Assembly: GCA_020722685.1 (NCBI GenBank)
Contig: DYKH01000026.1
Location: forward strand, 1-49,151
Length of the DNA: 49,151 nucleotides
From: Caldithrix sp.
Lineage (GTDB): Bacteria; KSB1; UBA2214; DYKH01
Direction of reading: 5' to 3'
The notes beneath the pieces were generated by a model. That model saw only the letters and a list, made by a program, of their open reading frames with translations, ran no database searches and was not told where the DNA came from. The translations under genes were made by a program, and so were the position numbers. This document shows positions 19,457 through 38,133 of this stretch, piece by piece (position 1 is the first letter of the stretch; each line of letters starts with the position of its first letter).

Positions 19457-19533
19457 TGTACATTCTGGTTAAACCATAGTTGGCTGTTTGCTCCGCGTTC
19501 AAAAACTCATTGAAAATTGGTGCTTGTTTACCC

Positions 19534-19562
19534 TTGACTTCCGCCGTACAAAGTGATAGACT
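19534..19562 (+). promoter_or_regulatory. Promoter at the head of the cassette island
   Basis: TTGACT (19534-19539), 17-base spacer, TAGACT (19557-19562). A GTTAGCA box follows at 19570-19576, matching the right-hand box of the attC-like sites. It could be the entry point of the cassette array, though no matching left arm is visible. This promoter would serve the first genes of the array, since cassettes rarely carry promoters. Confidence 0.55.
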
Positions 19563-19611
19563 ATAAACACGTTAGCAATACGGCTGGCGAATAAAAAACA
19601 GGAGAAACAAA

Positions 19612-19836
19612 ATGAACAAGTACTTTTATGCAGCACGGAGCGACAAGGGTTTGAGCATGACATACGACTCACCTTGCTGGATGGTACACGCTTTTACGAG
19701 CAAGCAAGAGCGCGACCAGTATGTCGCAGAAAACAGCGACGGCACAGAAACTGTAACCGCCAGCACCGCCCACAAGATTGCGCCCGAACTCAAAACCAAG
19801 TCGCCGTCAGAAGCATGGCGAGTGGTCGCCCACTAA
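19612..19836 (+). CDS. Small unknown protein, first gene of the cassette island (74 aa)
   Basis: CAGGAG lies upstream of the ATG at good spacing. The sequence (MNKYFYAARSDKGLSMTYDS) has an N-terminal strand pattern and ends in a Thr/Ala-rich helix. No family recognised. Its TAA shares one base with the start of the next gene, so both are probably expressed together from the promoter at 19534. Confidence 0.6.
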   Translation: MNKYFYAARSDKGLSMTYDSPCWMVHAFTSKQERDQYVAENSDGTETVTASTAHKIAPELKTKSPSEAWRVVAH

Positions 19837-20045
19837 TGACAAATCAAAAAAAGGGGAGCCGAAAGGCTCCCCGACCATCACGAAAGAATGTTGTTATCAC
19901 TCCGCATAAGGGCGGGCGCACCGCGAGATTCGAAGCGCGTCTCACCCCAGCGGAAAAAGAAGCCATCTTGAAAGTGATCCGTGAAAGTGGCTTGTCATCT
20001 GCTGATTGGCTCGTGCGGGTCAGTGGCACAGCCAACAAAGCGTGA
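19836..20045 (+). CDS. MobC-like/ribbon-helix-helix small DNA-binding protein (69 aa)
   Basis: A basic N-terminus (KGSRKAPRPSRKN) leads into RTARFEARLTPAEKEAILKV and SGLSSADWLVRVSG. This strand-helix-helix pattern is typical of MobC/plasmid-mobilisation and other ribbon-helix-helix proteins. A paralogue is at 38838-39038. In both, the last codons lie inside the left arm of an attC-like site. The beginning of the gene contains a GGGGAGCC hairpin that is also present at 37662. Confidence 0.55.
   Translation: MTNQKKGSRKAPRPSRKNVVITPHKGGRTARFEARLTPAEKEAILKVIRESGLSSADWLVRVSGTANKA
19853..19872. other. Hairpin GGGGAGCC-GAAA-GGCTCCCC
   Basis: A perfect 8-bp stem with a GAAA tetraloop inside the start of the small DNA-binding gene, preceded by seven A residues. 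Read on the minus strand it is a canonical terminator (stem plus T7). The same hairpin occurs at 37662-37681 in an equivalent position. Confidence 0.6.
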
Positions 20046-20138
20046 ACCAGACGGCGGAACTGTCGCCGAAAATTAGTAGGTTGCGCGTTCTGGTGGTCGT
20101 GGGTCAATCCCGCCGCTGGTTACGCAAACCGTTAGAAG
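20031..20138 (+). repeat. attC-like site A
   Basis: Left box AGCCAAC region, arm GCGTGAACCAGACGGCGG at 20040-20057, variable loop, right arm CCGCCGCTGGTTACGC at 20110-20125, then AAACC and GTTAGAA. The left arm pairs with the right except for two extra bases (G and A). Those are the extrahelical-base arrangement of integron attC sites, with unpaired AAA/AAACC as central spacer. Confidence 0.85.
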
Positions 20139-20146
20139 GCTAAAAC

Positions 20147-20908
20147 ATGTTCACTTTGCACAACGGAGATTGTCTCCCTTACATAAAAGCCATGCCAGCA
20201 AAAAGCGTCTCCGCGGTGATAAGCGACCCTCCTTACGGTATCGCAAACATTGTCGGTAATGGTCGATATGGGCGCACAGTCCGAAAAATAGAAAATGATT
20301 TCAATTTAGATATTTTGGTCGAAGCGTTTCAAGAAATGTTGCGCGTTGCCCCGCTCGTTATGCTTTTCCATAGCCCGCGAAACTTGTCCGATTTTTACAA
20401 ACAAATTGACGGCGCAAATTTCGCAGGGCATATTATTTGGAATAAAAAAGCCCCTGGCACTGGTTTTGGAAGCATAAGATACCAGCATGAGCATATTTCA
20501 GTATTTGGCGATTTGCCAAAAGAAAAGGAGTCTATATTCAGTGTAATCAACGAATACAGAGAAGCAAAGTTGCACCCACACGAAAAGCCTGTTTTGCTTA
20601 TGCAAAAACTTGTCAATTGGGTTGATGGTGAAAAAAAAATAATACTCGACCCATTTATGGGAAGCGGCTCAACTGGCGTCGCCTGCGTGAAATTGAATGT
20701 TGATTTTATAGGCTGTGAATTATCGCCAGAGTATTTTGCAATAGCAGAGAAGCGTCTAAAAGAAGCGTCTTTACAACAGCATCTCTTTACGCCTTCTAAC
20801 AACCGCTTGCACCTTGACGTGGGGGATTCTCCCGCGCAGCAAGCATTATTCACCCCCGAAGCGGATTCCGCCGAAGGGAAGTTACCTGCACCCGCCCCAC
20901 GCAGGTAA
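20147..20908 (+). CDS. DNA methyltransferase, beta-class N4/N6 type (253 aa)
   Basis: Catalytic motif IV DPPY is at residues 27-30 (ISDPPYGIANIVG). The SAM-binding motif I comes late, at 168-177 (DPFMGSGSTG), followed by FIGCELSPEYFAIAEKRL. The order IV before I defines the beta class of amino-methyltransferases. Residues from about 217 to the end (NNRLHLDVGDSPAQQALFT onward) are encoded by attC-like site B, so the real protein carries a recombination-site-encoded tail. The target sequence is unknown, no restriction partner is adjacent, and protection of phage DNA from host restriction is the likely role. Confidence 0.88.
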   Translation: MFTLHNGDCLPYIKAMPAKSVSAVISDPPYGIANIVGNGRYGRTVRKIENDFNLDILVEAFQEMLRVAPLVMLFHSPRNLSDFYKQIDGANFAGHIIWNKKAPGTGFGSIRYQHEHISVFGDLPKEKESIFSVINEYREAKLHPHEKPVLLMQKLVNWVDGEKKIILDPFMGSGSTGVACVKLNVDFIGCELSPEYFAIAEKRLKEASLQQHLFTPSNNRLHLDVGDSPAQQALFTPEADSAEGKLPAPAPRR

Positions 20909-20923
20909 AGCGAACCGTTGGGC
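20794..20923 (+). repeat. attC-like site B
   Basis: Left box TTCTAAC, arm CGCTTGCACCTTGACGTGGG; right arm CCCCACGCAGGTAAAGCG, then AACC and GTTGGGC (exact GTTRRRY). The left arm is longer than the right by three bases. The stop codon of the upstream methyltransferase lies in the right arm. Confidence 0.82.
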
Positions 20924-20930
20924 TTCTGAA

Positions 20931-21626
20931 ATGAGTGTATCTTACAAACTGCACAAAGGCGATTGTCTTGCGTTCATGCGCGAGATGAAAGACAAAAGCG
21001 TTGATTGCGTCATAACCGACCCGCCGTATGGTATCAATTTCATAAACGGTGGTGGTCGCAATCCTGCAAACGGCTGGCGCACATTTTACGATAGCGAAGG
21101 CGATTGGGATAAACGGAAACCAACAAAGGAATACTTCGATGAAATGTTCCGAGTTGCTAACAAAGTAATTATTTGGGGCGGTAATTATTTTGCAAACCTT
21201 CTCCCACCTTCGCAACAGTGGCTTGTGTGGGATAAAGGTCAAAGAAATTTTAGCCTTGCAGATGGCGAATTGGCTTGGTCAAGCATTGATAAAGCAGTAA
21301 GGATTTACACTTATTCGAGAGCCGCCATGCTAAAAGAACGAGTTGAGCATCCAACACAAAAGCCCGTTGCGCTTATGAAATGGTGTTTACAAATTGCAGA
21401 AGCGCAATCAGTCTTTGACCCATTCATGGGAAGCGGTACGATGGGTGTGGCGTGTGTTGAAATGCAAGTGCCTTTTATGGGCTGTGAAGTAAACGCAAAG
21501 TATTATTCCATAGCCGAGAAGCGTATTCAATCGGCGGCATTACAGCCGTCATTCTTTCACGAAGCCCAACAAACGCTTGCACCTGACGCGGGCAAGGCTG
21601 CGGCTCAAAAAGGTTTATTTGAATAA
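20931..21626 (+). CDS. DNA methyltransferase, beta-class N4/N6 type (231 aa)
   Basis: The start at 20931 is 14 bases after the cassette boundary. Upstream in-frame codons belong to the previous attC site and are not expected in the protein. Motif IV DPPY is at 30-33 (VITDPPYGINFING). Motif I (FDPFMGSGTMGVAC) is near residue 165, followed by FMGCEVNAKYYSIAEKRI. WDKGQRNFSLADGELAW resembles the middle region of phage m6A enzymes. The last about 20 residues (QQTLAPDAGKAAAQKGLFE) lie inside attC-like site C. No strong ribosome binding site, as often with cassette genes. Confidence 0.87.
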   Translation: MSVSYKLHKGDCLAFMREMKDKSVDCVITDPPYGINFINGGGRNPANGWRTFYDSEGDWDKRKPTKEYFDEMFRVANKVIIWGGNYFANLLPPSQQWLVWDKGQRNFSLADGELAWSSIDKAVRIYTYSRAAMLKERVEHPTQKPVALMKWCLQIAEAQSVFDPFMGSGTMGVACVEMQVPFMGCEVNAKYYSIAEKRIQSAALQPSFFHEAQQTLAPDAGKAAAQKGLFE

Positions 21627-21675
21627 AATTGTGGTTCGTGTTATCTGCCCGCGCAGGTAAAGCGAGCCGTTAGAA
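21564..21675 (+). repeat. attC-like site C
   Basis: Left box GCCCAAC (exact RYYYAAC), arm CGCTTGCACCTGACGCGGGC; right arm GCCCGCGCAGGTAAAGCG, then AGCC and GTTAGAA. Extra bases lie in the left arm only. A gene stop lies in the loop. Confidence 0.83.
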
Positions 21676-21685
21676 GGCTAAAAAT

Positions 21686-22396
21686 ATGTTCTCTTATTAC
21701 GGCAGTAAAAGCAAACTCGTAGACCTATACCCTGCTCCGAAGCATGGCAAGGTAATTGAGCCTTTCGCGGGAAGCGCACGTTATGCGCTGAAATATTTTG
21801 ACCGTGATGTTTTGATTGTAGATGCTTACGATGTGGTTATAAAAATCTGGCAATACTTGCAGCTCGCAAGCGAGAAAGATATTTTAGGATTGCCAGATTT
21901 GACATACAAACAATCAACGGCTGATTACAACCTGTCCGAAGGTGAGCGTCTATTACTTGGCTTCTTGGTTGCGCGTGGTTCTCGCCGCCCTGCTAAAGTT
22001 GTGCAAAAGTTTTCGAGCGTGGCGCAAGATAAAATTCGTATCGCCAAAGACCTGTATAAAATTCGTCACTGGAAAATTCAGCAAGGCGATTACAGAAACA
22101 TCGAGAATATCGAAGCCACATGGTTTATTGATCCGCCATATCAGAACGTAGGCAAAGCAGGTTACAACGTCAATGAGCGCGGTAACGCGATAGACTTTCC
22201 TGCTCTTGGTGAGTGGTGTAAATCGCGTAATGGTCAGGCGATTGTTTGCGAAGTCACCACCGCCGACTGGTTGCCATTTGAGCCGCTCAAAAAACAACAC
22301 GGTCAGAAGTTATCCAGCACAGAAGCGATTTGGTGTAATGATAATTGGTCTTATCAACAGCAGCTCTTTACGCCACCTAACACCGCGTGCACTTGA
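21686..22396 (+). CDS. D12-class (Dam-like, alpha) DNA adenine methyltransferase (236 aa)
   Basis: An N-terminal FSYYGSKSKLVDLYP leads to motif I VIEPFAGSARYAL (residues 23-35). DPPY is late, at 149-152 (FIDPPYQNVGKAGYNV). Order I then IV with this N-terminus is the D12/Dam family, making N6-methyladenine. WCNDNWSY near the end and the last seven residues run into attC-like site D. The divergent N-terminal GSKSK (instead of GGK) is as in phage members. It is the only alpha-class enzyme among the five methyltransferases here. Confidence 0.85.
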   Translation: MFSYYGSKSKLVDLYPAPKHGKVIEPFAGSARYALKYFDRDVLIVDAYDVVIKIWQYLQLASEKDILGLPDLTYKQSTADYNLSEGERLLLGFLVARGSRRPAKVVQKFSSVAQDKIRIAKDLYKIRHWKIQQGDYRNIENIEATWFIDPPYQNVGKAGYNVNERGNAIDFPALGEWCKSRNGQAIVCEVTTADWLPFEPLKKQHGQKLSSTEAIWCNDNWSYQQQLFTPPNTACT

Positions 22397-22502
22397 CGGC
22401 GGGGATTCTGCGGCATTTCAAGCATTATCTACGCCCGAAGTTTTATCCACCTTGCCGAGCGAGTCTACACCCGCCCGCCGCAAGTAAAGCAAACCGTTAG
22501 AC
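22375..22502 (+). repeat. attC-like site D (both boxes match consensus)
   Basis: Left box ACCTAAC and right box GTTAGAC match RYYYAAC and GTTRRRY exactly. Arms GCGTGCACTTGACGGCGGG and CCCGCCGCAAGTAAAGC pair with extra bases on the left. The loop shows the recurring GGGGATTCTGCGG segment. Confidence 0.86.
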
Positions 22503-22523
22503 CCCTTCTTGGAGAATTGTCAC

Positions 22524-22865
22524 ATGAACAAAGAGGAAATTTGTAAAATGCAAGCAGGCGAAGAAATGGACGCGCTTGTTCTTTCAGAAATTTTCGGAAT
22601 TATGCCTTTCAAATCCGAAAACTGCAAACCGTATAAATTAGACATGTTTCAAAACCCGGAACCTATTTCGTATTACAGCGGAGATATTTTTTCAGCGTGG
22701 GCTATTGTTGATAAGTTGCGTAAGGATGATGTGATAAATATATGGTGTAACTACAATTGGTATATTGTAACAATCGAAAAACCAAAAGGTGATATTGAGG
22801 GAAAGGCTGAAAGTCTTCCACACGCGATATGTCGAGCCGCTTTACTGGCAGTCGTTCCCGCTTAA
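22524..22865 (+). CDS. Phage ABA-sandwich family protein (113 aa)
   Basis: GGAG lies 9 bases before the ATG at 22524. The C-terminus is characteristic of the phage ABA sandwich (BC1872-like) family: YSGDIFSAWAIVDKLRK, then aromatic strands (NIWCNYNWYIV), then AESLPHAICRAALLAV. The N-terminal MQAGEEMDALVLSEIFG helix also fits. The function of the family is unknown; members are small proteins of phages and prophages. Its cassette lacks a complete attC: only a right box GTTAGAC at 22869-22875 follows. Confidence 0.75.
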   Translation: MNKEEICKMQAGEEMDALVLSEIFGIMPFKSENCKPYKLDMFQNPEPISYYSGDIFSAWAIVDKLRKDDVINIWCNYNWYIVTIEKPKGDIEGKAESLPHAICRAALLAVVPA

Positions 22866-22868
22866 TAT

Positions 22869-22875
22869 GTTAGAC
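22869..22875 (+). repeat. Orphan attC right box GTTAGAC
   Basis: An exact GTTRRRY box three bases after the stop of the ABA-sandwich gene, with the same GTTAGACCC continuation as sites D and F. No left box or palindromic arm precedes it. It may be a scar of an eroded site. Confidence 0.4.
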
Positions 22876-22885
22876 CCATTTCTTC

Positions 22886-22975
22886 GGGGCAGTATGGTAC
22901 TCGTGAGGGTTGCCCATTGCTAATACTAGTCATAAACAGGGTAGCTGTAAGGCGGTTCGAGTCCGCTATGCTCCA
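22886..22975 (+). tRNA. tRNA-like sequence or tRNA 3'-end fragment
   Basis: The last 30 bases look like a genuine tRNA 3' half: a T-arm GGCGG-TTCGAGT-CCGCT, an acceptor strand ATGCTCC and a terminal A (CA follows). Upstream GGGGCAG pairs with the acceptor strand at six of seven positions (one wobble), giving a 90-base unit. I could not fold a convincing D-arm or anticodon arm. It may be a degenerate or class II tRNA, or only a tRNA 3' end captured as an integrase attachment site. Confidence 0.35.
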
Positions 22976-22977
22976 CA

Positions 22978-23053
22978 GAGAAGCCCGCTAACAAACGCCG
23001 CAACCCATGAAGGCTAATTACCTGAATGGTGGTAAAGACGGTTCGGGCTTCTC
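22978..23053 (+). other. Large hairpin with attC-like left box, non-coding spacer
   Basis: GAGAAGCCCG (22978-22987) and CGGGCTTCTC (23044-23053) are a perfect 10-base inverted repeat enclosing 56 bases. Just inside lies CTAACAAACGCCG, similar to the left box and arm of the attC-like sites, but without a GTTAG partner. With the tRNA-like sequence it fills most of the 275-base gap between genes. Confidence 0.4.
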
Positions 23054-23074
23054 AAAATTGGTATCTTCTAACCC

Positions 23075-23103
23075 TTAACAACCAAAGCACTTAGGTATAT
23101 ACT
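23075..23103 (+). promoter_or_regulatory. Promoter inside the cassette array
   Basis: TTAACA (23075-23080), 17-base spacer, TATACT (23098-23103), 38 bases before the 23141 start codon. It means this cassette carries its own promoter, which is uncommon and typical of toxin-antitoxin or regulatory cassettes. Confidence 0.6.
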
Positions 23104-23140
23104 AACTGCATCGTCAAACAGAAGCAACAGGAGAAACCAA

Positions 23141-23311
23141 ATGAACACAACTTACCAACCCAATCACACCGCAATCGAAGCCTACGCAATCATGCAGCAA
23201 ATGGCAATCACCGCAAAAATGACAGTCCAGCAGTTAGCCGAAGCCAACGATTGCAAAAGCGGTTACGAACTTCAAAAGAAAATCTTGGCTGATCTGAATG
23301 AACAAAAATAA
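23141..23311 (+). CDS. Small helical protein (56 aa)
   Basis: CAGGAG stands 7 bases before the ATG. The sequence MNTTYQPNHTAIEAYAIMQQ continues as one or two helices (MTVQQLAEANDCKSGYELQK) that could be a minimal helix-turn-helix. Its stop overlaps the start of the next gene by 14 bases, and a promoter lies just upstream, so the two form a small transcription unit. A regulator or antitoxin role is possible but unproven. Confidence 0.55.
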   Translation: MNTTYQPNHTAIEAYAIMQQMAITAKMTVQQLAEANDCKSGYELQKKILADLNEQK

Positions 23312-23657
23312 CGCAACAACAGGGGCGGGGAAACCCGCCCAATTTACAAAAGACCCAATTGTGGAAGAAGCCATATTATATTCCGTAAGCGTTTACGGCT
23401 TGTCTATCCCGAACGATGATATTACATATCATTTTTTGGAAACATTGTGTAAGCGGTATTCTAAAGAACTTAGTCGCAAAGGTGGCTCGTCCACCAGCAA
23501 GGCAAAAAAGAGGTCGTCCGCTAATAACGGAAAACTTGGTGGGCGTCCGAAAGGTTCTAAAAATAAATTATGCTCCTTCTGCGACGGTACAGGTAATGAT
23601 TTATTTCTTAGTTGGGGATTCTGCGGACTTACAGGCAGTATCTACACCTCAGCCTAA
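23298..23657 (+). CDS. Small basic protein with AT-hook-like motif (119 aa)
   Basis: The N-terminal half (PIVEEAILYSVSVYGLSIPN, YHFLETLCKRYSKEL) is helical. The middle carries a Lys/Ser linker and the motif GKLGGRPKGSKNK, which looks like an AT-hook or DNA-contacting arm. The C-terminal 25 residues (WGFCGLTGSIYTSA) are translated from the conserved loop of attC-like site E and are probably not functional. It is expressed with the preceding 56-residue protein. Confidence 0.5.
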   Translation: MNKNNATTGAGKPAQFTKDPIVEEAILYSVSVYGLSIPNDDITYHFLETLCKRYSKELSRKGGSSTSKAKKRSSANNGKLGGRPKGSKNKLCSFCDGTGNDLFLSWGFCGLTGSIYTSA

Positions 23658-23716
23658 TCCTACTCCCAAACATAAGCGCAAGCCCACCCAGCGCAGGTAA
23701 CGCAAGTTCGTTAGCA
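23613..23716 (+). repeat. attC-like site E, right half only
   Basis: The loop (GGGGATTCTGCGGACTTACA, also nearly identical in site K) and the right arm GCGCAGGTAACGC with GTTAGCA are intact. The expected left box and arm before 23613 are replaced by coding sequence of the preceding gene. It would be unable to fold as an attC. Confidence 0.65.
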
Positions 23717-23726
23717 GGCTGAAATA

Positions 23727-24497
23727 ATGTCACTTTATCACGGCGATTGTCTCCCAATCATGCGATCCATGCAGTCAGATAGTATTGATTGCATAGTCAC
23801 AGACCCCCCCTATGGCATAAATGCCGATGGCGGTGTTGGTGGTTTTGGCGCATCTGCAACGGACAAGCATTATCAAGTTGGATGGGATGGCAAAGCACCA
23901 AGTCAAGAATATTTCACAGAGATGTTACGCATTGCCAAAAAGGTTTTTATCTTTGGCGGTAACTTCTTCACCGATAAATTGCCAGTTGGCAAGCATTGGA
24001 TTGTTTGGGATAAGACAGGCGAAATCAAATTCAAAAATCCATTTGGTGACGCCGAGTTAGTTTGGACAAACATAGACCGTAATTCAATCAAAAAATATGT
24101 GCTTATCCAGCAAGGTTTTGTTTCAAGAGAGCGTGAGCGTTTTCACCCAACGCAAAAGCCAACACAGTTATTGCGTTTAATTTTGACAGACTACACCGCC
24201 GAAGGTGAAACGATTTTAGATCCATTCATGGGGTCGGGTAGTACAGGTGTGGCGTGCGTCGAAGTTGGGCGAGAGTTTATCGGTATTGAGCGTGAGCATA
24301 ATTATTTTGTGATTGCACAACAACGGGTCGAGAAGGCAAAGTTACAACCACGCCTGCTAACACCGCGTGCACTGGACGCGGGGGAGTCGCCCACTTCGTT
24401 ATTTTCCGCAGAGGTTATTTGCCCTGCGAAAGTTACGCGGAAATCCCCCCGCCGCTCACGCAAACCGTTAGACCCCTTCACCCGCGTTCACGGGTAA
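23727..24497 (+). CDS. DNA methyltransferase, beta-class N4/N6 type (256 aa)
   Basis: Motif IV DPPY is at 26-29 (CIVTDPPYGINADGG). Motif I is at 165-174 (DPFMGSGSTG) with FIGIEREHNYFVIAQQRV behind it. The enzyme core ends near residue 208. Residues 210-256 (ALDAGESPTSLFSAEVICPA onward) are translated from attC-like site F and its flank, the longest site-encoded tail in this array. It starts 11 bases after the preceding right box. It is related to, but clearly distinct from, the 20147 and 20931 enzymes, so these are not recent duplicates. Confidence 0.87.
   Translation: MSLYHGDCLPIMRSMQSDSIDCIVTDPPYGINADGGVGGFGASATDKHYQVGWDGKAPSQEYFTEMLRIAKKVFIFGGNFFTDKLPVGKHWIVWDKTGEIKFKNPFGDAELVWTNIDRNSIKKYVLIQQGFVSRERERFHPTQKPTQLLRLILTDYTAEGETILDPFMGSGSTGVACVEVGREFIGIEREHNYFVIAQQRVEKAKLQPRLLTPRALDAGESPTSLFSAEVICPAKVTRKSPRRSRKPLDPFTRVHG
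24355..24473 (+). repeat. attC-like site F
   Basis: Left box TGCTAAC, arm GCGTGCACTGGACGCGGGGG; right arm CCCCCCGCCGCTCACGC, then AAACC and GTTAGAC. The loop has a second stem, TTTCCGC with GCGGAAA. Confidence 0.82.
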
Positions 24498-24516
24498 GGG
24501 TAAAAGGAGAAATATC

Positions 24517-24884
24517 ATGTACAAGTATTCTTGCAAAAATGGTCATCTGAAATATTTATCGTCTTGCGTGATTGTTCCTCTGTCATGCGAAATGTGTGGT
24601 TCAGAATTGGCATCTCTGAATCCATCGGCTTTACTCCATATTGGTATCGCCTTCCTTCGACTGGCGAAATTCAGCCAGAGCCAGAAACTCCGAAAAACTT
24701 TGTCGCGGTTCCGTACCGCGATGAAGGTTATCACGGCGGAGAGTATTGGGCAATACTGCCTGCCGATTGGACAATGGAAAGTGCCATTGCTCTGTTCAAG
24801 AGCGAAGGTCATCTAAATTCTTTGGCGCAAATTAATTTTCAGGATGTGCCAGACGAATACATGTATCACGTGGGCGGGGTCTAA
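24517..24884 (+). pseudogene. Small cassette gene, apparently frameshifted
   Basis: A strong AAAGGAG site precedes the ATG at 24517. That frame begins like a zinc ribbon (YSCKNGH, then SCEMCGSE) but then loses protein-like character. The -1 frame from about 24590 looks natural to the end (GFTPYWYRLPSTGEIQPE, EGYHGGEYWAILPADW) and stops at 24884, right at attC-like site G. The simplest reading is one gene with a single frameshift, from mutation or sequencing error, near 24600. Confidence 0.5.
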
Positions 24885-25008
24885 CAAAGCGTGCAGCCGA
24901 CGTGTGGGATTCTGCGGCATTTTCGAGCATTTTTCTGGCTTCGAGTTTTCCCTGCTCCCAAGCAGAATCCACGCCCGCCCACACGCAGGTAACGCAAGAC
25001 CGTTAGCC
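24879..25008 (+). repeat. attC-like site G
   Basis: Left box GTCTAAC (exact RYYYAAC), arm GCGTGCAGCCGACGTGTGGG; right arm CCCACACGCAGGTAACGC, then AAGACC and GTTAGCC. The loop has a further 9-bp stem, GGATTCTGC with GCAGAATCC. Confidence 0.86.
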
Positions 25009-25035
25009 TGCTTCCTTGCATGGCATTGGAGTCTT

Positions 25036-26004
25036 ATGACGGCACCAAACACAAAAAACTTCTGCGGTGGCAATTTTCAAGATTGGCTTGAAGTCAATTT
25101 GATTGAAAAGTGCAATGCCTGCTGTTCTTGGTGTATTGAAAGAAGCGGGTATCATCCATCTTTCCACGCTTCGACAGAAGCAATAGCGTCCGCCGCTATA
25201 AAAACTGGCAAAACAAACATCATTCTTTTGGGCGGCGAACCTCTGCTTTATTCAGACATAGCCAGTTTGGTAAAAATCTTGTCATCAAACAATCGCAAAG
25301 TTTGGATAACCACAAATGGATTCTTGCTTTCAGATAAGTTTGTTTTGAATAAACTTATTGGCGTGCATGGTGTCAATATTTCAATTCACCATTTTGATTT
25401 GCAAAAAAATAAAGAAATTACTGGCGTCTTGTTATCTGAAAACAAATTGAAATCTGCAATTTCGGCACTTCATCAGTCAGGGGCGCATGTTCGCCTAAAT
25501 TGCAACTCAATAAGCGGGTATATTGACATAAAAGAAACCATATTCCAGTATGTCTCTTGGGCAAAAAGCATCCACGCTGATAAAGTGCGTTTCGCAGAAC
25601 TAAAGCAAGACGACAATGGATTTATTGACTTAGCCAAAGTTCTAAATTATCAATATGGGTTGAACGACGATCCATTTGTTTATGGTTGTAATTCAGATTG
25701 TGTAATTGATGGTATTCCAGTCAACTTCCGCCAAATGTGCGGATTACAAACCAGCAGGCGAATTGCTCCAGAAAATCCAGAACAATATGCAAAAGAAGTT
25801 TTGTATTACGATGGAATAATTTATGCTGGCTGGCAAACAATTCAGGAGAAAAAAGAAATGAACGGAAAAGATGTTCTAAAGAAAATCACAAACAATAAAC
25901 TCACCGATGAAGAAATTGAAGCCTTGCTCAAACTAATTGAAAAAATGGTTGAGCGTGAAGTTTCCCGCCAAACTCCGTCATCCAGTGGCGGGTGTCAATA
26001 TTAA
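25036..26004 (+). CDS. Radical SAM enzyme of unknown substrate (322 aa)
   Basis: The start at 25036 lies 28 bases after the cassette boundary; upstream in-frame codons belong to attC site G. The Fe-S cluster motif is C26-x3-C30-x2-C33 (EKCNACCSWC), followed by the SAM-binding GGEP at 66-69 (NIILLGGEPLLYSDI) and WITTNGFLL. The C-terminal region has further Cys residues (VYGCNSDCVI, RQMCGL) that may bind a second cluster, and ends in a charged helical tail (KLTDEEIEALLKLIEKMVER). The reaction is unknown; nucleotide, tRNA or peptide modification are all possible. Confidence 0.82.
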   Translation: MTAPNTKNFCGGNFQDWLEVNLIEKCNACCSWCIERSGYHPSFHASTEAIASAAIKTGKTNIILLGGEPLLYSDIASLVKILSSNNRKVWITTNGFLLSDKFVLNKLIGVHGVNISIHHFDLQKNKEITGVLLSENKLKSAISALHQSGAHVRLNCNSISGYIDIKETIFQYVSWAKSIHADKVRFAELKQDDNGFIDLAKVLNYQYGLNDDPFVYGCNSDCVIDGIPVNFRQMCGLQTSRRIAPENPEQYAKEVLYYDGIIYAGWQTIQEKKEMNGKDVLKKITNNKLTDEEIEALLKLIEKMVEREVSRQTPSSSGGCQY

Positions 26005-26014
26005 CATAAACGCA

Positions 26015-26112
26015 GGCTAACAATGCTTGCGCCTCACGTATGGTGGGCTTCGGCGTGGCGGACGGTTTTCCCTACACCCGCCACCATACGCAGGTAAGGC
26101 TTGCCGTTAGAT
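26015..26112 (+). repeat. attC-like site H
   Basis: Left box GGCTAAC, arm GCTTGCGCCTCACGTATGG; right arm CCATACGCAGGTAAGGC, then TTGCC and GTTAGAT (exact GTTRRRY). Inner stem GGTGGG with CCCGCC. It is the most compact complete site (98 bases). Confidence 0.82.
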
Positions 26113-26139
26113 GCTTCCTTTGAGAAGCAAGGAGTCGAA

Positions 26140-26445
26140 ATGCCAAAGTTGTTTTTATGGCGAGATACAGGGGTTGTCAAGAAATGGGGGACACAATTCG
26201 CCATTGCCGAAGATATAAAAGATGCGGTAATGGCAGTTATGAGGGCGAGAGCGCAAGAGCCACGAAACGATTATGGCTCTTATCGTACATATTTAGCAAT
26301 ACAACATGATGGCTTATTGTGTGGTGAGTTGTTTATGATTGAGCCAGAAATATTTGAATTAGATAGTCCAATCGGTTTTGCTGTTTGGCGAAGCGAAGGA
26401 ACAGTAAGCCCTGGTCAAGTAAAAGATGGCACAGAACGCATCTAA
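26140..26445 (+). CDS. Unknown cassette protein (101 aa)
   Basis: CAAGGAG precedes the ATG at 26140 by 6 bases. A compact alpha/beta protein: MPKLFLWRDTGVVKKWGTQF, helix KDAVMAVMRARAQE, strands (YLAIQHDGLLCGELFMIEP), then SPIGFAVWRSEGTVSPG. It contains no known catalytic motif. Its stop is at the left box of truncated site I, so it is the last cassette of the array. Confidence 0.65.
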   Translation: MPKLFLWRDTGVVKKWGTQFAIAEDIKDAVMAVMRARAQEPRNDYGSYRTYLAIQHDGLLCGELFMIEPEIFELDSPIGFAVWRSEGTVSPGQVKDGTERI

Positions 26446-26480
26446 CAAAGTACGCACCTGACAAGTGGGATTCTGCCAGA
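26440..26480 (+). repeat. attC-like site I, left half only
   Basis: The left box ATCTAAC (exact RYYYAAC) and the arm into GTGGGATTCTGCCAG are present, then homology to the other sites stops. No right arm or GTTAG box occurs before the next gene. This marks the right edge of the cassette array. Confidence 0.7.
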
Positions 26481-26537
26481 AAATACCATGCGCCAAATGC
26501 GCTGAGTTGACAAAATCAAACTACTAAGGAGTCATAA

Positions 26538-27290
26538 ATGGGCGAAGGATCAGCAATCGCGTGGACACAAAACACTTGGAATCCGTGGCAAGGCTGCCAT
26601 AAGAAATCCCCAGGCTGCAAGCATTGTTATATGTTCCGTGACAAAAAACGCTATGGCAAAGACCCGAACATCGTAGTGCACTCATCATTCAAAACCTTCA
26701 ATAACCCGAAGTCATGGAAAACGCCGTCACTTGTCTTTGTCTGCTCCTGGTCAGACTTTTGGATCGAAGAAGCCGACGAATGGCGCAAGGATGCATTTGC
26801 AATCATGCGGAACACTCCGCACATTTACCAAATCCCCACGAAGCGCCCAGAGCGAATCGCCTCCCACCTCCCCCGCGATTGGGGCGAAGGATACCCAAAC
26901 GTCATGCTTATGGTCAGCGTCGAAAGTCAGGCGTTTCTCAATCGCGCCGAAATGCTGGCTGAAATCCCATGTCAGGGGCGGGGAATATCCTACGAACCCG
27001 CGTTAGGTCCCGTTGATTTTTCAAGCGTTCTGTCTCGGTATGACTGGCTTATCTCAGGCGGTGAAAGCGGATACGGGAAGCCAGGGGATGAATTCTATCC
27101 GCGTCCGGCTGAATTGGACTGGTTTAGGTCGGCGCGCGATCAATGCCAGAGGTTTGATGTGCCATACTTCCATAAGCAGAACGGAGGCACGAAGCGGATC
27201 AATGGCAAGGCGGGCGGGAATTTGCTGGACTGGATGACGTATGAGAATTATCCTGCCTCATTCGCAAGGGTGATGACATGCAAAGACTGA
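26538..27290 (+). CDS. DUF5131 / phage Gp37-Gp68 family protein (250 aa)
   Basis: It opens with the family signature GSAIAWTQNTWNPWQGC and the cysteine set C-x6-C-x2-C (GCHKKSPGCKHCYM), a probable radical-SAM-like or metal cluster site. SLVFVCSWSDFW, IYQIPTKRPERI and DWLISGGESGYG are also typical of the family. Homologues are frequent in phages; the biochemical role is not established. AAGGAG lies upstream of the ATG. It is the first gene beyond the attC-bounded cassettes but stays on the same strand. Confidence 0.82.
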   Translation: MGEGSAIAWTQNTWNPWQGCHKKSPGCKHCYMFRDKKRYGKDPNIVVHSSFKTFNNPKSWKTPSLVFVCSWSDFWIEEADEWRKDAFAIMRNTPHIYQIPTKRPERIASHLPRDWGEGYPNVMLMVSVESQAFLNRAEMLAEIPCQGRGISYEPALGPVDFSSVLSRYDWLISGGESGYGKPGDEFYPRPAELDWFRSARDQCQRFDVPYFHKQNGGTKRINGKAGGNLLDWMTYENYPASFARVMTCKD

Positions 27291-27732: not shown

Positions 27733-28215
27733 ATGAAAATAGGACGCATGAATCAACGCATCGGCAAACACGGACAGGAAACAGCCGCATCCTACCTGTC
27801 AGGTTTCGGACTCGAAATGGTTGAGCCTATCGGGACTCCTGTCACCCTGGTATCAGTTGGAGGTCGCAAGGATGTGTTTCGCGTCATCTTCGGGGAAAAG
27901 GTCAGCGGCGATCACCGCGCACTACTCCCTGACGGGACGAGCGTGCTGATTGAAACAAAGACCGTCATTGACGGCAACTTGACTTACTCCCACCTGCGGG
28001 AACATCAACCCGAACGGCTTTCCCGTCATGCTTCAATCGGGCGGGCGGTGTCCCTGCTTGTTTGGGTACACCATAGCGGGATTTATGTCATGTGTTGGGG
28101 CGAGAACGGGATTGAAGGATTTGCCCCGCGCAAGAGTATCGCGCCGAAGCGGGCGCAGGAATTGCACGATGAGTGCATGGCGCTATTGTTTGCGAGAATG
28201 AAGATGGCAGAATGA
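27733..28215 (+). CDS. RecU-like/PD-(D/E)XK nuclease (160 aa)
   Basis: The core motif is GDHRALLPDGTSVLIETKTV (residues about 57-76), with the acidic residue, D and E-x-K spacing of PD-(D/E)XK enzymes. YSHLREHQPERLSRHASIG follows, closely resembling the glutamine-containing helix of RecU-like resolvases. It lies directly before a DNA methyltransferase with a four-base overlap. It could be a recombination nuclease or a restriction-like partner; the RecU resemblance favours the first. Confidence 0.6.
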   Translation: MKIGRMNQRIGKHGQETAASYLSGFGLEMVEPIGTPVTLVSVGGRKDVFRVIFGEKVSGDHRALLPDGTSVLIETKTVIDGNLTYSHLREHQPERLSRHASIGRAVSLLVWVHHSGIYVMCWGENGIEGFAPRKSIAPKRAQELHDECMALLFARMKMAE

Positions 28216-29636
28216 CCGACGTAACATTTTTAGAAGGTGATGTACTCAAAACCCTAAAAGACCTTGCTGATTGTTCTGTTCAGTGCGTGGTAACTTCGCC
28301 TCCCTATTACGGCTTGCGCGATTATGGCACGGCAGAATGGAAAGGCGACGACCCGAACTGCAACCACGTTGACGATGACAAGGTAGCAGAGCGCAAGCGC
28401 CAAAAGAAGTCCATGATTGCAGTCGGTGAAAGTCTTGACGGTAGCACCCGCACGCGGGAGCATGATGAATCAATTGGTAAAGACTGGCAATATCGTGACG
28501 CTTGTAAAAAATGCGGAGCTCTGCGAATTGATAGCCAAATAGGTTTAGAGCCTACGCCCGAAGCATTCGTTGAAAAACTTGTAGATGTGTTTCGTGAATG
28601 TCGCCGCGTTCTAAAAAACGATGGTACTCTCTGGCTGAATTTGGGTGATAGTTATTGGGGCGGCAAAGGTCAAAGCGGAACACGCGGCGAAGATAATCAA
28701 GAGATACGCTATGAAAAAGGCGCGAGTATAAATCGCGGGTATCAAACGCTTGGCGGCGCAGGCTTGACTCGCCCGACTGACAGCAAGCATCCAGTTATCA
28801 AACCTAAAGACCTAATCGGTATTCCCTGGATGGTCGCCTTTGCTTTACGCGCTGATGGTTGGTATTTGCGCCAAGATATTATTTGGGCGAAGCCGAACCC
28901 CATGCCTGAAAGCGTGACAGACCGTTGCACAAAAAGCCATGAATACCTGTTTGTGCTATCCAAGAGCGCACAATATTACTATGACTTTGAAGCGATTTTA
29001 GAGCCAGCGAACTTCGATGGGCGCAAGGCAACCAAGATGAAGGGAAGTTGGAAATATCAAAATGGCTTTGCGCCGACTGACGATAACCCGAACACGCTGC
29101 ACATCAAAGGGCATGAAAGATGGTCAAGGCAAATGCCTGGCATAGGTCCAAAACACGGAGCGGAGCGCAATCGTGGCGAAGAATACAAGCCCATTCGTGG
29201 GTACAAAACAAAGGCGCAACTTCCCGACATGCAGCATCACGGCGATGCCATTCAGTCTGGATACGGTCTGTCTGGCAACGGATTCAAGGGTCATTCTGGT
29301 AACTACGATTCTGACGGCAACCTGCTTGGTCACGAAATAGACGGCGTGCCTGCGAGGAACAAGCGTGATGTTTGGTTTGTGCCGACTAAGCCGTACAAAG
29401 AGGCGCACTTTGCCACATTCCCGCCCGACCTGATCGAACCTTGTATCTTGGCTGGTAGCAAAGAAGGCGATACCGTCCTTGATCCATTTGGAGGGTCAGG
29501 AACGACTGCGGCAGTCGCAATTAAGCGCCATCGAAAAGCAATTCTGTGCGAACTAAACCCCAAGTATATAAAAATTGCAAAAAAGAGATTGTCAACTGTT
29601 CAATATGTCATGCCTGAAACAATCGAGGAACGATGA
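28212..29636 (+). CDS. DNA methyltransferase, beta-class with TSPPY motif (474 aa)
   Basis: The ATG at 28212 overlaps the preceding TGA (ATGA). Motif IV TSPPYYGLRDYG (residues 28-39) and the late motif I VLDPFGGSGTTAAVA, followed by AILCELNPKYIKIAKKRL, mark a beta-class amino-methyltransferase. A Ser in SPPY is common in N4-cytosine enzymes. It is twice the size of the cassette enzymes because of a long insert with a cysteine pair (CKKCG) and a large target-recognition region (residues about 270-390). It lies outside the attC-bounded cassettes. Confidence 0.87.
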   Translation: MTDVTFLEGDVLKTLKDLADCSVQCVVTSPPYYGLRDYGTAEWKGDDPNCNHVDDDKVAERKRQKKSMIAVGESLDGSTRTREHDESIGKDWQYRDACKKCGALRIDSQIGLEPTPEAFVEKLVDVFRECRRVLKNDGTLWLNLGDSYWGGKGQSGTRGEDNQEIRYEKGASINRGYQTLGGAGLTRPTDSKHPVIKPKDLIGIPWMVAFALRADGWYLRQDIIWAKPNPMPESVTDRCTKSHEYLFVLSKSAQYYYDFEAILEPANFDGRKATKMKGSWKYQNGFAPTDDNPNTLHIKGHERWSRQMPGIGPKHGAERNRGEEYKPIRGYKTKAQLPDMQHHGDAIQSGYGLSGNGFKGHSGNYDSDGNLLGHEIDGVPARNKRDVWFVPTKPYKEAHFATFPPDLIEPCILAGSKEGDTVLDPFGGSGTTAAVAIKRHRKAILCELNPKYIKIAKKRLSTVQYVMPETIEER

Positions 29637-29824
29637 CCCACTCCCCCACTATCCAAGAAGCCGTTGACGCCTGGCTTGCGGCTGTCAAACGCTCCAAGTC
29701 CGAGCGGACACACATCACTTACGCTTCATCGGCGCGGACGTTTCTTGCGTCCGTTTCGGATGTCATCACGCCGACTGCGCCGGCGTCTCGCCTATCTGAT
29801 TCCCACGACGTTTTTGCTGACTGA
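29633..29824 (+). pseudogene. Truncated tyrosine-type integrase fragment (N-terminal domain only, 63 aa)
   Basis: MTHSPTIQEAVDAWLAAVKR and HITYASSARTFLASV match the N-terminal SAM-like core-binding domain of phage tyrosine integrases. Nothing of the catalytic domain (R, H-x-x-R, Y) follows: the frame stops at 29824 where a minus-strand gene reads across. It overlaps the methyltransferase by ATGA. This is the right border of the plus-strand island and probably a deletion scar. Confidence 0.65.
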
Positions 29825-30105
29825 AATGCGTCGATGTAGTATTCAGCGACCTTACTGCCTTTCTCTTCTTGTTGTCGCCAGAAAGAGACGCATTGGTCTA
29901 AATAGTCCTGCATCATCGTTATTCTTTGATAGGCTCCAGCAAGTTTATCGTTCTTCTCGCCCGCGTCGACCCTGCTCATGGCTTTCTTGAGGAATTCAGC
30001 CATGACCTCGCCAACCAGAATAAGGGTAATCCCTCGCTTTTCCTCATTGTCCATGATGTTGAAAACGTGATTTACCTTATCGTATTTATATGAATACTTG
30101 TTCAT
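29719..30105 (-). CDS. Unknown late-region protein whose 3' end runs into the integrase remnant (128 aa)
   Basis: Residues 1 to about 95 look natural (NHVFNIMDNEEKRGITLILV, then YQRITMMQDYLDQCVSFWRQ). The last about 33 residues (SDRRDAGAVGVMTSETDAR) are antisense to the integrase fragment, so the original end of this gene was probably lost when the island formed. Its start overlaps the stop of the neighbouring gene by one base. No family recognised; it is in the terminase-portal half of the late block. Confidence 0.6.
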   Translation of the reverse strand: MNKYSYKYDKVNHVFNIMDNEEKRGITLILVGEVMAEFLKKAMSRVDAGEKNDKLAGAYQRITMMQDYLDQCVSFWRQQEEKGSKVAEYYIDAFQSAKTSWESDRRDAGAVGVMTSETDARNVRADEA

Positions 30106-33315: not shown

Positions 33316-33503
33316 AGGGACTCCGTGCTTGTTAGTTTTACTGATATTTGAAAAACATACTTGCCTCTTTTGTCCAGTTCCACCAGGTTCGGAGATAACT
33401 CAATGAGCGGCTTGAAAAACGTAATTTTGCCGCATTCGATTTTGTAATCCAGCAAGTGGACAAGAATTCCATTTACGCGCACTTCAAGCTGTTTTTCTTC
33501 CAT
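33312..33503 (-). CDS. Small unknown protein between terminase and portal (63 aa)
   Basis: A small beta-rich protein (VRVNGILVHLLDYKIECGKI), possibly a single sheet domain. GAAATGGA precedes the ATG at 33503. Its stop overlaps the portal start (ATGA). No family recognised. Confidence 0.6.
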   Translation of the reverse strand: MEEKQLEVRVNGILVHLLDYKIECGKITFFKPLIELSPNLVELDKRGKYVFQISVKLTSTESL

Positions 33504-33524
33504 TTCGATTTATTATACAATAAA

Positions 33525-35132
33525 TTACCACGCCAGGGGCGCATCCGGCGCGAATGACAAAATCAAAGACTCCGCCTTGTCAGGACTGCGCCCAAGCGAT
33601 TCCTTCATGGAGTCCTTGCTGGTTATGATTACCTTGCCATTATAAACCCAATATGACGGCGCAAGCAGTTCTTCTATCAACTCGTCGTCGGGCGGCAGCA
33701 TCGCGCCGGGGTCGTCTTTCAGCCATATCATTGTGCTGTACCATATCTGGTCGCGCAACTGGCGAAATACGCCTAGTTCGGTTTCGTAGGTTGGCGACGA
33801 AGCAACCATGACCTTTTCTGCATATTGAACGCCGAGCCTCTGCATTCGCGGCGCAACGCCCGCGCCGACACCCGTTCCGTCAACCTTTATTTTGATGGAA
33901 TGAAGTGGCTGCCCCAGCGACTTTGCAATCTCTACGGTTTTGATTGCGGTTTGGTCGGGGTCGATCCCGCCCCACGTTCGCAGACGCGCAACCCATCCGC
34001 CCCAGCGTTGGCACATCGAATTTTTATCCCGCCCCCCGTCGGCTACGTCCAGCCCAATGATAGGACGGACGCCAGCGGGAGGCACTTCGCCAAACCGCGC
34101 CACATAGGTATGCCAGCGCGAGACAGCGGCGTCCACCCATGCGCGGCTGATAAGTTGCGTTTCAGATTGAGGCGGATAAATGCCGAGGACTTTGTAAAAG
34201 AATTCAGGATATTCCCGCTTCACCCTGCGCCAGCCGGCGGGAAGCGGTTGAGTCATATTCCCGCCCTTGTCCAGCACGGTAGCGCCGACAAGAAAATCAG
34301 GCAGTTCAAAGCATTCGATATCGGGGCGTTCGCTGGGCAGGAGCGGGTCGGTCATTTTGTTGATACGCTCAACGGTCTTTGCCCTCGACACCGCGCCTGG
34401 GATCACATCGACTCCCTGAATTACGTTCGGATGGTCAAAGGCTGAAAGGTAAATGACATTCCCTTCCTTGCGCTTCACCATTTGCGCCACAGTCCCCGCT
34501 TCATACCTCGGATTGAACATGATAAGCAAGCGTCCCATTCCGCCCGACAGACAAGAGTCAATCCCTTTGTAGACCTCGCTTGGCACGGCGTCACCTTCAT
34601 CCACGATAAAGAGCAGGTGCGGCGCGTGCTTGCCGCTGAATTTACTTTCCCGCTCCGCCGGCGATCCCGTACTGGGCACGGCGACTCCAGTGATAAAAGA
34701 CAGGGAATGCCGCCTGATATTCATGTCATTGTAGACTCTGTCCGACGCGAATACATCAGGCTTTCCGCGCACCACTGCGCCGATCTCGCCCCATAGGATG
34801 TTTTGAAGGTTGGTAATGGGAGGCGCGGCAGTAGTGTAGACTTGGGCGTCCTCAAATGTTTTATAGAACCACACGGCGATGCGTGCAGCCGCATGAGACT
34901 TGCCCGTCCCATTCGCGGATACTGCAATTGTGACCTGATTGTCCCTGACTGATTCGATAACCTTCTTGATCGGGTCCGTGATGACAAGGACGCCGAGTTT
35001 GTGCTGGATGAATGCAACGGGGTCAACCGCGTACTCTGACTCGGAAGCCTTCCCGTCCACGCTCCGCTGTTTGAGTTTCTTGAGTTTCAGGGCTTCCGCT
35101 ACGATTTGCGCCCGCGTTTTGGTCGGCTTCAT
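33525..35132 (-). CDS. terL: Terminase large subunit (535 aa)
   Basis: The ATPase domain has Walker A SANGTGKS at residues 72-79 and Walker B LLFIVDEGD at 172-180. The coupling region is LLIMFNPRYEAG near 201-212. The C-terminal nuclease domain starts with the acidic strand IIGLDVADGGRDKNS (Asp361, Asp364), and further acidic positions follow (KVDGTGVGAG near 435). This is the DNA packaging motor. It overlaps the small terminase gene by four bases. Confidence 0.9.
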   Translation of the reverse strand: MKPTKTRAQIVAEALKLKKLKQRSVDGKASESEYAVDPVAFIQHKLGVLVITDPIKKVIESVRDNQVTIAVSANGTGKSHAAARIAVWFYKTFEDAQVYTTAAPPITNLQNILWGEIGAVVRGKPDVFASDRVYNDMNIRRHSLSFITGVAVPSTGSPAERESKFSGKHAPHLLFIVDEGDAVPSEVYKGIDSCLSGGMGRLLIMFNPRYEAGTVAQMVKRKEGNVIYLSAFDHPNVIQGVDVIPGAVSRAKTVERINKMTDPLLPSERPDIECFELPDFLVGATVLDKGGNMTQPLPAGWRRVKREYPEFFYKVLGIYPPQSETQLISRAWVDAAVSRWHTYVARFGEVPPAGVRPIIGLDVADGGRDKNSMCQRWGGWVARLRTWGGIDPDQTAIKTVEIAKSLGQPLHSIKIKVDGTGVGAGVAPRMQRLGVQYAEKVMVASSPTYETELGVFRQLRDQIWYSTMIWLKDDPGAMLPPDDELIEELLAPSYWVYNGKVIITSKDSMKESLGRSPDKAESLILSFAPDAPLAW

Positions 35133-37138: not shown

Positions 37139-37207
37139 ACCTGCATTATAGTACAGTTTGGCGGGCTGGGGCAGGAAACGGCGGGAATCAGCGGCATAAA
37201 GAAGATA

Positions 37208-37262
37208 GTACTTTTGGGGGATGCGTAAGGGTTGACAGTTATATAACCGTGTGATAAGATAG
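37208..37262 (+). repeat. 55-bp direct repeat, copy 1, containing a strong promoter
   Basis: Identical to 38113-38167. It contains TTGACA (37232-37237), a 17-base spacer and TAAGAT (37255-37260). The perfect palindrome GTTATATAAC occupies 37238-37247 in the spacer, a likely operator. This copy drives the 37314 gene and faces away from the minus-strand late block. Confidence 0.85.
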
Positions 37263-37652: not shown

Positions 37653-38133
37653 CAAAAATAAGGGGAGCCGAAAGGCTCCCCGCACCCATCAGGCACACTG
37701 GCACGACAACACCATCAAAGCACTGTCCATTAAGCAACCATGGGCGGGCTTGATAATCGCAGGCGTCAAAACCGTGGAGAATCGCTCCTGGATGACCTAC
37801 CACTCCGGGCGGCTGGCTATTGTGTCAAGCACAAAACCCGACGCGCAAGCGATGAGAGACATGGAGTCGCAGCTTGGCAAACTGCCAGCGGCGTGCTATA
37901 CAAACGGCTCCATCCTGGGGACCGTGGACATGACCGGGGCAATCTGGGAGGCGGATGACGGCGAGACCGAGTCAGACGTACCAGACCGAGTCACAGACTC
38001 AGTCTTGGAATGGTGGGATACCGACTCAATCGGCTGGATATTGGAGCGACCAAAGCGACTCAGCTCACCCATCCCGCATAAAGGCAGACTCGGACTCTAC
38101 TCGATTCCTCTGGTACTTTTGGGGGATGCGTAA
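37645..38133 (+). CDS. ASCH-domain protein (162 aa)
   Basis: The ASCH fold is indicated by IKALSIKQPWAGLIIAGVKT and VENRSWMTYHSGRLAIVSST, with GTVDMTGAIWEADDG and a final HKGRLGLYSIPLVLLGDA. ASCH proteins bind RNA or modified nucleosides; some deaminate or hydrolyse modified cytidine. A GTG at 37645 is the likely start, overlapping the previous stop. Its first codons encode KGSRKAPR through the GGGGAGCC hairpin. Its last codons lie in the second copy of the 55-bp promoter repeat. Confidence 0.75.
   Translation: MISKNKGSRKAPRTHQAHWHDNTIKALSIKQPWAGLIIAGVKTVENRSWMTYHSGRLAIVSSTKPDAQAMRDMESQLGKLPAACYTNGSILGTVDMTGAIWEADDGETESDVPDRVTDSVLEWWDTDSIGWILERPKRLSSPIPHKGRLGLYSIPLVLLGDA
37662..37681. other. 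Second copy of the hairpin GGGGAGCC-GAAA-GGCTCCCC
   Basis: Same 20-base hairpin as at 19853-19872, again just after the start of a gene, and translated to the same KGSRKAPR. Confidence 0.6.

Follow-up and report, generated by a model that had tools for sequence, protein, structure and literature searches.

How does a phage genome in which no integron integrase can be found come to carry a long row of integron recombination sites, and what could such a row be good for? The question is raised by a stretch of 49,151 nucleotides, hereafter the window (contig DYKH01000026.1 of assembly GCA_020722685.1, filed as Caldithrix sp.), which holds a series of attC-like palindromes. An earlier note on this DNA, made from the letters alone, had named seven complete sites (A, B, C, D, F, G, and H) and two half sites (E and I), and these letters are kept here. 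Comparison with other genomes makes it quite probable that the window carries a cluster of attC sites lacking an integron integrase (CALIN) in a tailed phage, with attC sites that match those of chromosomal integrons in Chloroflexota and cassettes that would have been inserted and shuffled by an integrase acting in trans, encoded by the host or by a different phage. A CALIN is a cluster of at least two attC sites, with neighbors within a few kilobases and no integrase nearby.

attC sites in the genome of a tailed phage

PHROG matches of the window's proteins include the large terminase (phrog_2) and the small terminase, the portal (phrog_146), head proteins, the tape measure, an endolysin, a replication initiator, and RecT-like and DnaB-like proteins. 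The window is the genome of a tailed phage, and the array lies inside it, as the earlier note had said. Its terminase matches 286 phage records, all at less than 60% identity, and has no confirmed relative in viral contigs. The first and last 55 bases of the window are identical; because these ends fall in a 33-bp tandem repeat, which spans both window ends (1 to 55 and 49035 to 49151), a circular genome is likely, not proven.

A tblastn search with the integrase of OLB14, a Chloroflexota metagenome-assembled genome (MAG), detected no integron integrase in the window (best E value, 0.38), in agreement with the same note, and the 30 window proteins scanned, out of a larger number of open reading frames (ORFs), include none by PHROG match. 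By the tblastn result, the window thus lacks what makes an integron complete, an integrase gene on the same replicon. No attI was seen to the left of site A in a reading by eye, made without an attI model for this group. What the window does have is seven complete attC sites in 6.1 kb, and with no integrase found by tblastn this array is a CALIN.

We searched for attC sites with two covariance models. R1 was trained on six window sites (A, B, C, D, F, and H) and searched over nine sources; R2 was built from 22 chromosomal attC sites of 10 OLB14-group genomes, which were collected via R1, and contains no phage letters. At an E value of ≤1, R1 gave 13 matches, namely, its six training sites, site G, half site E, two sites at 39015 to 39145 and 42668 to 42799, the genome contigs L001 and L002, and one attC of a Shewanella prophage. 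R2 recovered nine of the nine complete window sites (47 to 115 bits; E values of 4.1e-12 to 4.8e-33) together with half site E, and at an E value of ≤1 it matched nothing else in the window.

The array runs from 20029 to 26483 in one orientation, with a gene or gene pair ahead of each site and successive cut points about 0.5 to 1.2 kb apart, as read from the sequence. Its complete sites, all on the + strand, are A (20029 to 20138; 62.4 bits in R2 and, as a training site, 83.1 bits in R1), B (20793 to 20924; 89.0 bits in R2), C (21563 to 21676; 69.1 bits), D (22374 to 22503; 114.6 bits, with the E value of 4.8e-33), F (24354 to 24474; 52.7 bits), G (24878 to 25009; 98.2 bits in R2 and, held out, 56.5 bits in R1), and H (26014 to 26113; 47.4 bits). 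Half site E, at about 23611 to 23718 on the same strand, is a right half whose left arm is missing; R2 gives it 27.0 bits (23611 to 23692) and R1 a weak 12.5 bits (E value, 0.34), and its right arm and the GTTAG at 23710 were identified by reading. Half site I, a left half on the + strand at about 26438 to 26483, ends the array; it was missed by both models and was recognized from repeat family D1 (26442 to 26483) and by reading.

All nine named sites and their single orientation are therefore confirmed. The earlier finding stopped short, however, of the two further complete sites, which lie on the + strand, isolated from the array, and are training sites of neither model. The site at 39015 to 39145 scores 47.2 bits in R1 and 61.2 bits in R2 and has a weaker inner stem (all 5 outer pairs but 11 of the 15 inner ones), and the site at 42668 to 42799, downstream of the RecT-like gene, scores 59.6 and 87.5 bits and has all 5 outer and all 15 inner pairs.

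The AAC and GTT boxes are present in all nine complete sites, but only B, D, F, and H carry the full GTTRRRY. The box reads GTTAGAA in A and C, GTTAGCC in G and the 42.7-kb site, and GTTAGTT in the 39.0-kb site. In the alignment of the six R1 training sites, 91.7% of 120 cells are paired, compared with 80.8% after shuffling, and 13 cells have changed on both sides; neither value was attained in any of 500 shuffles. Such a change is seen in 7 pairs, a number equaled or exceeded in 15 of the 500 shuffles. The outer helix is paired in 96.7% of the cells of these sites, and two unpaired columns stand on one arm only in 6 of 6. Sliding the partner by 1 to 3 columns lowers pairing to 31 to 46%, a control that is biased toward the structure because the structure was drawn from these same sequences. 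When all nine complete sites are aligned to R1, each forms at least 4 of the 5 outer pairs and at least 11 of the 15 inner ones, and minimum-energy RNA folds of the bottom strand, a check that had been proposed for these sites, close the outer stem in seven of the nine. Covariation and folding support the view that the bottom strand can form the imperfect hairpin usual for attC, with unpaired bases on one arm.

Could the palindromes instead be a family of phage terminators or regulatory hairpins that merely resembles attC? The sites do follow genes and fold strongly. Yet a model made from chromosomal integron sites only (R2) recovers the nine complete ones, and their box letters, their one-sided unpaired bases, and a break of identity at G|TT are features of attC. 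The idea is also already contradicted by R1 matches in OLB14-group genomes and by a cassette held in common with another phage, both described below, and we give it practically no credence. Rfam had no match in the window at gathering thresholds and, at an E value of ≤1, one chance match in 19500 to 27000.

Chloroflexota integrons and the predicted host

A loop pattern taken from the window matched two stretches in genome contigs, one in OLB14 and one in a MAG filed as Pseudomonadota, and nothing in viral contigs. OLB14 encodes an integron integrase of 451.5 bits, the cut-off being the curated TIGR02249 threshold of 265 bits. Among 61 OLB14-group genomes, 43 have R1 matches (best, 99.8 bits; up to 44 in one genome) and 33 have an integrase over the cut-off, versus 0 of 14 control genomes. 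One of them (G028) carries an array at 134 to 149 kb and an integrase at 154 kb of a single contig. The attC design claimed for the palindromes is thus borne out by boxes, one-sided unpaired bases, covariation, and kinship with integrase-bearing chromosomal integrons, and the R1 matches in 43 of 61 genomes show that they are not the phage-specific family without integron homologs that had been considered as the alternative. At the DNA level, 143 of 300 OLB14-group genomes match window positions 19500 to 26500, and among the matches listed all fall on site G, at up to 95 to 96% identity, so that of the window sites it stands nearest to those of chromosomes. At an E value of ≤1e-5, neither the 50,697 phage records nor the 72,556 plasmid records searched contained a match to site G.

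We predict OLB14-group Chloroflexota as the host group on the basis of the attC family and of one contig with tail genes. NCBI taxonomy puts OLB14 in the class Tepidiformia of the Chloroflexota, and Anaerolineae as a label for the host was dropped for this reason. The contig belongs to the OLB14-group genome G004 and holds relatives of the window's tail genes in the same order, at 29 to 59% amino acid identity; it is 6.7 kb long and could be a binned virus. DNA of window positions 1 to 19500 matches seven OLB14-group genomes, mostly over short lengths, the longest match being 66% over about 570 nucleotides (nt) in G004. Three matches of 30 to 32 nt at 93 to 94% were considered as possible CRISPR spacers.

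A phage without an integrase of its own might also enter and leave a host integron as one giant cassette, through the host integrase and its own attC sites. The lack of an integrase among the scanned PHROG matches would suit such a life cycle, and a Vibrio prophage with excision points in attC sites has been published (PMC9892861). No close prophage was found, however, in the 300 OLB14-group genomes, where the window is represented by two weak terminase matches and the seven genomes with mostly short DNA matches, and the phage may simply be virulent. We regard this form of lysogeny as very unlikely.

In two genome contigs (L035, at about 700 to 715, and L133, at about 1480 to 1495), a cassette starts at G|TTAG after sequence that is not attC-like, which could be an attI or a secondary insertion site.

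Cassette exchange and other viruses with this attC family

Cassette 2 of the window (20918 to 21669, 752 nt) aligns from cut point to cut point with positions 29335 to 30076 (742 nt) of the viral contig G306 at 76.7% nucleotide identity, and the flanks of the pair are at shuffle level both upstream and downstream (43 to 50%). This drop at the G|TT points supports a cutting and swapping step; to judge from the attC family, an integron integrase would cut G|TT of the right box and exchange whole cassettes. Sharp cassette ends were tested for this one window cassette. A cassette of the viral contig G302 matches one in the chromosomal array of G017 at 64.7% over the whole cassette, again with flanks at shuffle level, and the start of a G311 cassette matches a contig of G003 at 79.8% over the first 400 nt, with identity beginning at G|TTAG and the upstream sequence at shuffle level. 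The OLB14-group genome G038 has a copy of the cassette 2 methylase followed by an attC of 75.9 bits. Compared over its whole length, this G038 cassette shows 60.4% identity to window cassette 1 and 58.9% to cassette 2, against about 47 to 48% in shuffles. Cassette exchange is thus supported by several cassettes of the virus set and, for the window, by one tested phage-phage case. The row of attC sites likely allows a trade in genes, such as those for DNA methylases, with hosts and other viruses.

These viruses are ten contigs, G302 to G311, found by a pattern of two inner boxes; the pattern is strict, and ten is therefore a lower bound. In that order, they have 4, 10, 6, 5, 13, 10, 10, 1, 6, and 4 R1 hits at an E value of ≤0.001. 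Since G303, G307, and G308 are near-identical, the set comprises eight distinct viruses. A PHROG scan of 10 proteins from six of the eight (all except G305, of 6.3 kb, and G307) gave seven large terminase or portal matches, one protein with families of unknown function only, and two proteins with no match. One terminase or portal match or more was obtained for every one of the six scanned viruses, that of G302 being weak and on a fragment (35.1 bits). The terminases belong to phrog_9 in G304 and G309, phrog_2 in G310, phrog_38 in G311, and phrog_5909 in G302, and the portals to phrog_12 in G304 and phrog_533 in G306; as these families differ, several phage lineages hold this attC family. G307 and the window have in common a RecT-like protein and one head-region protein. 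The suggestion to look for the same sites and cassettes in related phages and in host integrons has in this way yielded the ten contigs, the OLB14-group arrays, and the G306 copy of cassette 2.

G304, of 37,160 bp with 127-bp end repeats (loci L053, L067, and L068), carries its own integron integrase gene at 33317 to 34378 (L068:13317 to 14378). The protein scores 395.5 bits, above the cut-off of 265, and across 315 amino acids (aa) it has 56% identity with the integrase of OLB14. The gene is read in the direction of the cassettes, and the first of six attC sites starts about 190 bases past it. In a tree, the G304 integrase falls within a clade of 21 OLB14-group integrases (97/92) that leaves out those of Vibrio and Shewanella; it sits on a long branch, and its precise position is uncertain. 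Residues common to all integrases compared include R131, K156, R265, H288, and Y297 (G304 numbering), which we take to be the catalytic positions. No attI was seen in G304. Among the ten viral contigs, G304 alone gave a significant integrase match by tblastn, which covered 80,000 of the 80,305 bases of G307. An integrase acting on the window phage could come from an OLB14-group chromosome or from a phage like G304, both of which have the gene.

G304 also invites the thought that an ancestor of the window phage had an integrase gene beside its array and then lost it, since here a phage with end repeats does have such a gene ahead of its attC sites. However, there is no trace of an integrase in the window (best tblastn E value, as above, 0.38), no other contig of the ten has a significant match, and G304 differs from the window in both its terminase and its portal family. 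We think it unlikely that the array began as part of a phage-owned integron.

Several results weigh against an array that is kept in motion by an integrase in trans, all support for which comes from sequence. At the level of the sites, F and the 39.0-kb site form 11 of the 15 inner-stem pairs and H forms 12, against 14 or 15 in the other six, and the outer stem of G and the 39.0-kb site stays open in the minimum-energy folds. A simple anchored pairing scan gave no separation of the sites from 60 shuffles (shuffle scores of up to 16.5; mean of 2.3 hits of 12 or more per shuffle), and covariance models were used instead for this reason. The window sites reach 47 to 115 bits in R2, but about 81 of 108 host-array sites reach at least 100 bits, a count made by hand in arrays picked for strong hits and with R2 training sites included. 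At an E value of ≤1, neither model matched anything in the Tetrasphaera phage TJE1 or the Vibrio phage (MK672802), and in the Shewanella prophage (MZ568829) R1 found one attC of 23.9 bits (E value, 1e-4), to which R2 gave 26.9 bits; the two models therefore probe this attC family and not attC sites generally. With regard to the host, the two weak matches are all that the window's large terminase has in the 300 OLB14-group genomes, and there was no repeat array at the two of the three possible spacer loci that were checked. With regard to the cassettes, the cassette 2 methylase has one match at an E value of ≤1e-20 in the 300 genomes (45% amino acid identity, in G038), and the radical SAM cassette matches 269 of the 300 at an E value of ≤0.001, but at no more than 38% identity among the matches listed. 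With matches this sparse or low, host origin of these two cassettes is not established. The last 98 nt before the end of the G311 contig are at shuffle level, so the G311/G003 match is not cassette-wide.

The two half sites and the incomplete inner stems of F, H, and the 39.0-kb site mean that part of the array may be dead. They also fit a fragment of a host integron that the phage picked up in a single illegitimate recombination event and that has since been decaying, its cassettes immobile; that no integrase was found in the window and that its sites score below most of the examined host-array sites would be expected of such a relic. But the cassette common to G306 ends at the recombination points and has different neighbors, two sites stand well apart from the array, at 39.0 and 42.7 kb, and the same attC family occurs in several phage lineages. 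A passive relic is rather improbable, and we prefer an integrase-less array whose cassettes would be moved by an integrase from elsewhere.

Nine cassette ORFs were compared with Pfam: four are DNA methyltransferases (three N6_N4 and one D12), one is a radical SAM protein, one is an ABA-sandwich protein, and three have no match at an E value of ≤0.001. All the ORFs listed here lie on the + strand, like the attC sites. Cassettes 1 (20147 to 20908; N6_N4_Mtase, 87.3 bits) and 2 (20931 to 21626; N6_N4_Mtase, 70.5 bits; the one shared with G306) encode DNA methyltransferases, cassette 3 (21686 to 22396; MethyltransfD12, 30.2 bits, cut-off of 22) a D12-class (Dam-like) DNA adenine methyltransferase, and cassette 4 (22524 to 22865; Phage_ABA_S, 40.1 bits) a phage ABA-sandwich protein. 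An ORF that runs into half site E (23298 to 23657) has no Pfam or PHROG match at the same threshold. It is followed by a DNA methyltransferase cassette whose ORF reads through site F (23727 to 24497; N6_N4_Mtase, 95.2 bits), an ORF of 117 aa (24531 to 24884) with no Pfam match and with five proteins, the window's own included, at an E value of ≤0.001 in a large protein search, the radical SAM cassette (25036 to 26004; Radical_SAM, 56.0 bits), and a last ORF (26140 to 26445) again without a Pfam or PHROG match at that threshold.

As members of their families, the four methyltransferases among the six Pfam-assigned ORFs may protect phage DNA from being cut by restriction enzymes of the host. G304 (MT-A70), G306 (N6_N4), and G307 (Dam), the three phages in which 10 cassette proteins were tested, have methylase cassettes as well. 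Methylases account for 7 of 61 ORFs in phage arrays (8 of 62 including window 20147 to 20908, which an overlap filter had removed) and for 2 of 176 in host arrays, a difference that we do not call enrichment, since the count used models made from phage methylases and chosen host arrays.

Known phage arrays and further features of the window

The earlier note had called arrays of this size in phages rarely or never described, which needs correcting: attC clusters without an integrase were reported 17 times in 10,705 phage genomes (PMC9892861). Among these CALINs, described by Qi et al. in 2023, those of Tetrasphaera phage TJE1, Polaribacter phage P12002L, and Pseudoalteromonas phage PH101 have, like the window, attC sites and cassettes and no integrase; P12002L likewise has DNA methyltransferase cassettes, and TJE1 and PH101 likewise have a single attC orientation (PMC9892861). 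Unlike the predicted host of the window, the hosts of these three are not Chloroflexota, and TJE1 has 3 attC sites, whereas the window has seven complete and two half sites in its array and two more elsewhere (PMC9892861). Five of six published phage attC sites tested recombined with attI1 (PMC9892861), while those of the window are known from sequence. The Vibrio phage MK672802 and the Shewanella prophage MZ568829 resemble the window in having attC arrays, but theirs are complete integrons in temperate phages, with an integrase close to that of the host (PMC9892861), and none was found in the window.

The chromosomal integrons of the OLB14 group have the same attC family as the window, and their arrays have cassettes in common with other phages of the set (G302 and G311); they differ from the window in that many of the genomes have an integrase and in that most examined sites score higher in R2. 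G304 has the same attC family and, in its MT-A70 cassette, a methyltransferase as well; its own integrase and its terminase and portal families set it apart.

Chloroflexota are among the phyla listed with integrons (PMC8618304; PMC9668308), integrase-linked sul4 modules have been reported, with Chloroflexota MAGs named among the sul4 contexts (PMC12772301), and a review describes CALINs as elements mobilized in trans by complete integrons (PMC11389934). On integrons in Chloroflexota phages, a search by title and abstract start found no open-access publication, most subscription papers and bioRxiv being outside its scope. Methylase cassettes in phage CALINs, and phage attC sites that function, were thus known already (PMC9892861); new here are the connection to Chloroflexota, the occurrence in several lineages of phages, and the sharing of cassettes. 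These findings would extend the trade in integron cassettes to Chloroflexota phages and show the passage of cassettes between viruses and chromosomal integrons. It is possible, if somewhat short of an even chance, that Chloroflexota phages run an integron economy of their own, in which unrelated lineages draw on a cassette pool common with host integrons and rich in methylases against restriction, and some carry the integrase; the integron would then be a gene-swapping organ of phages too and not of bacteria alone. Whether phages use host integrons or their own integrase for rapid change of counter-restriction genes becomes a testable question, for which G304, whose 37-kb genome combines an integrase gene with six attC sites, is a compact system.

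To the left of the array, a small ORF (19674 to 20045, + strand) has its stop codon within site A and matches the Pfam family NikA-like at 25.1 bits, just below the cut-off of 27. A second NikA-like ORF (38838 to 39038, + strand), 47% identical to it over 59 aa, ends within the 39.0-kb site, as if gene and site had been copied together. Genes that neighbor the two isolated sites, at 39775 to 40077 and, RecT-like, at 41429 to 42487, have relatives in G303/G307/G308 and G306, and in these viruses the arrays lie close to those relatives. The 39.0-kb site was considered as a hybrid because of its open outer stem and rejected as such; G, which is near-identical to host sites, folds likewise, and the pairing of the 39.0-kb site equals that of F. 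Within the array, 22976 to 23045 is a strong palindrome with AAC in its left arm, abnormal as attC and perhaps a worn site, and a tRNA-like look of the bases at about 22880 to 22980 was rejected, having no support from ARAGORN or Rfam. A fifth, larger DNA methyltransferase, which has relatives in G310 and G311, is encoded outside the array at 28173 to 29636. Upstream of two + strand genes, at about 37206 to 37262 and 38110 to 38166, lies a direct repeat of nearly 60 bases that looks promoter-like by eye.

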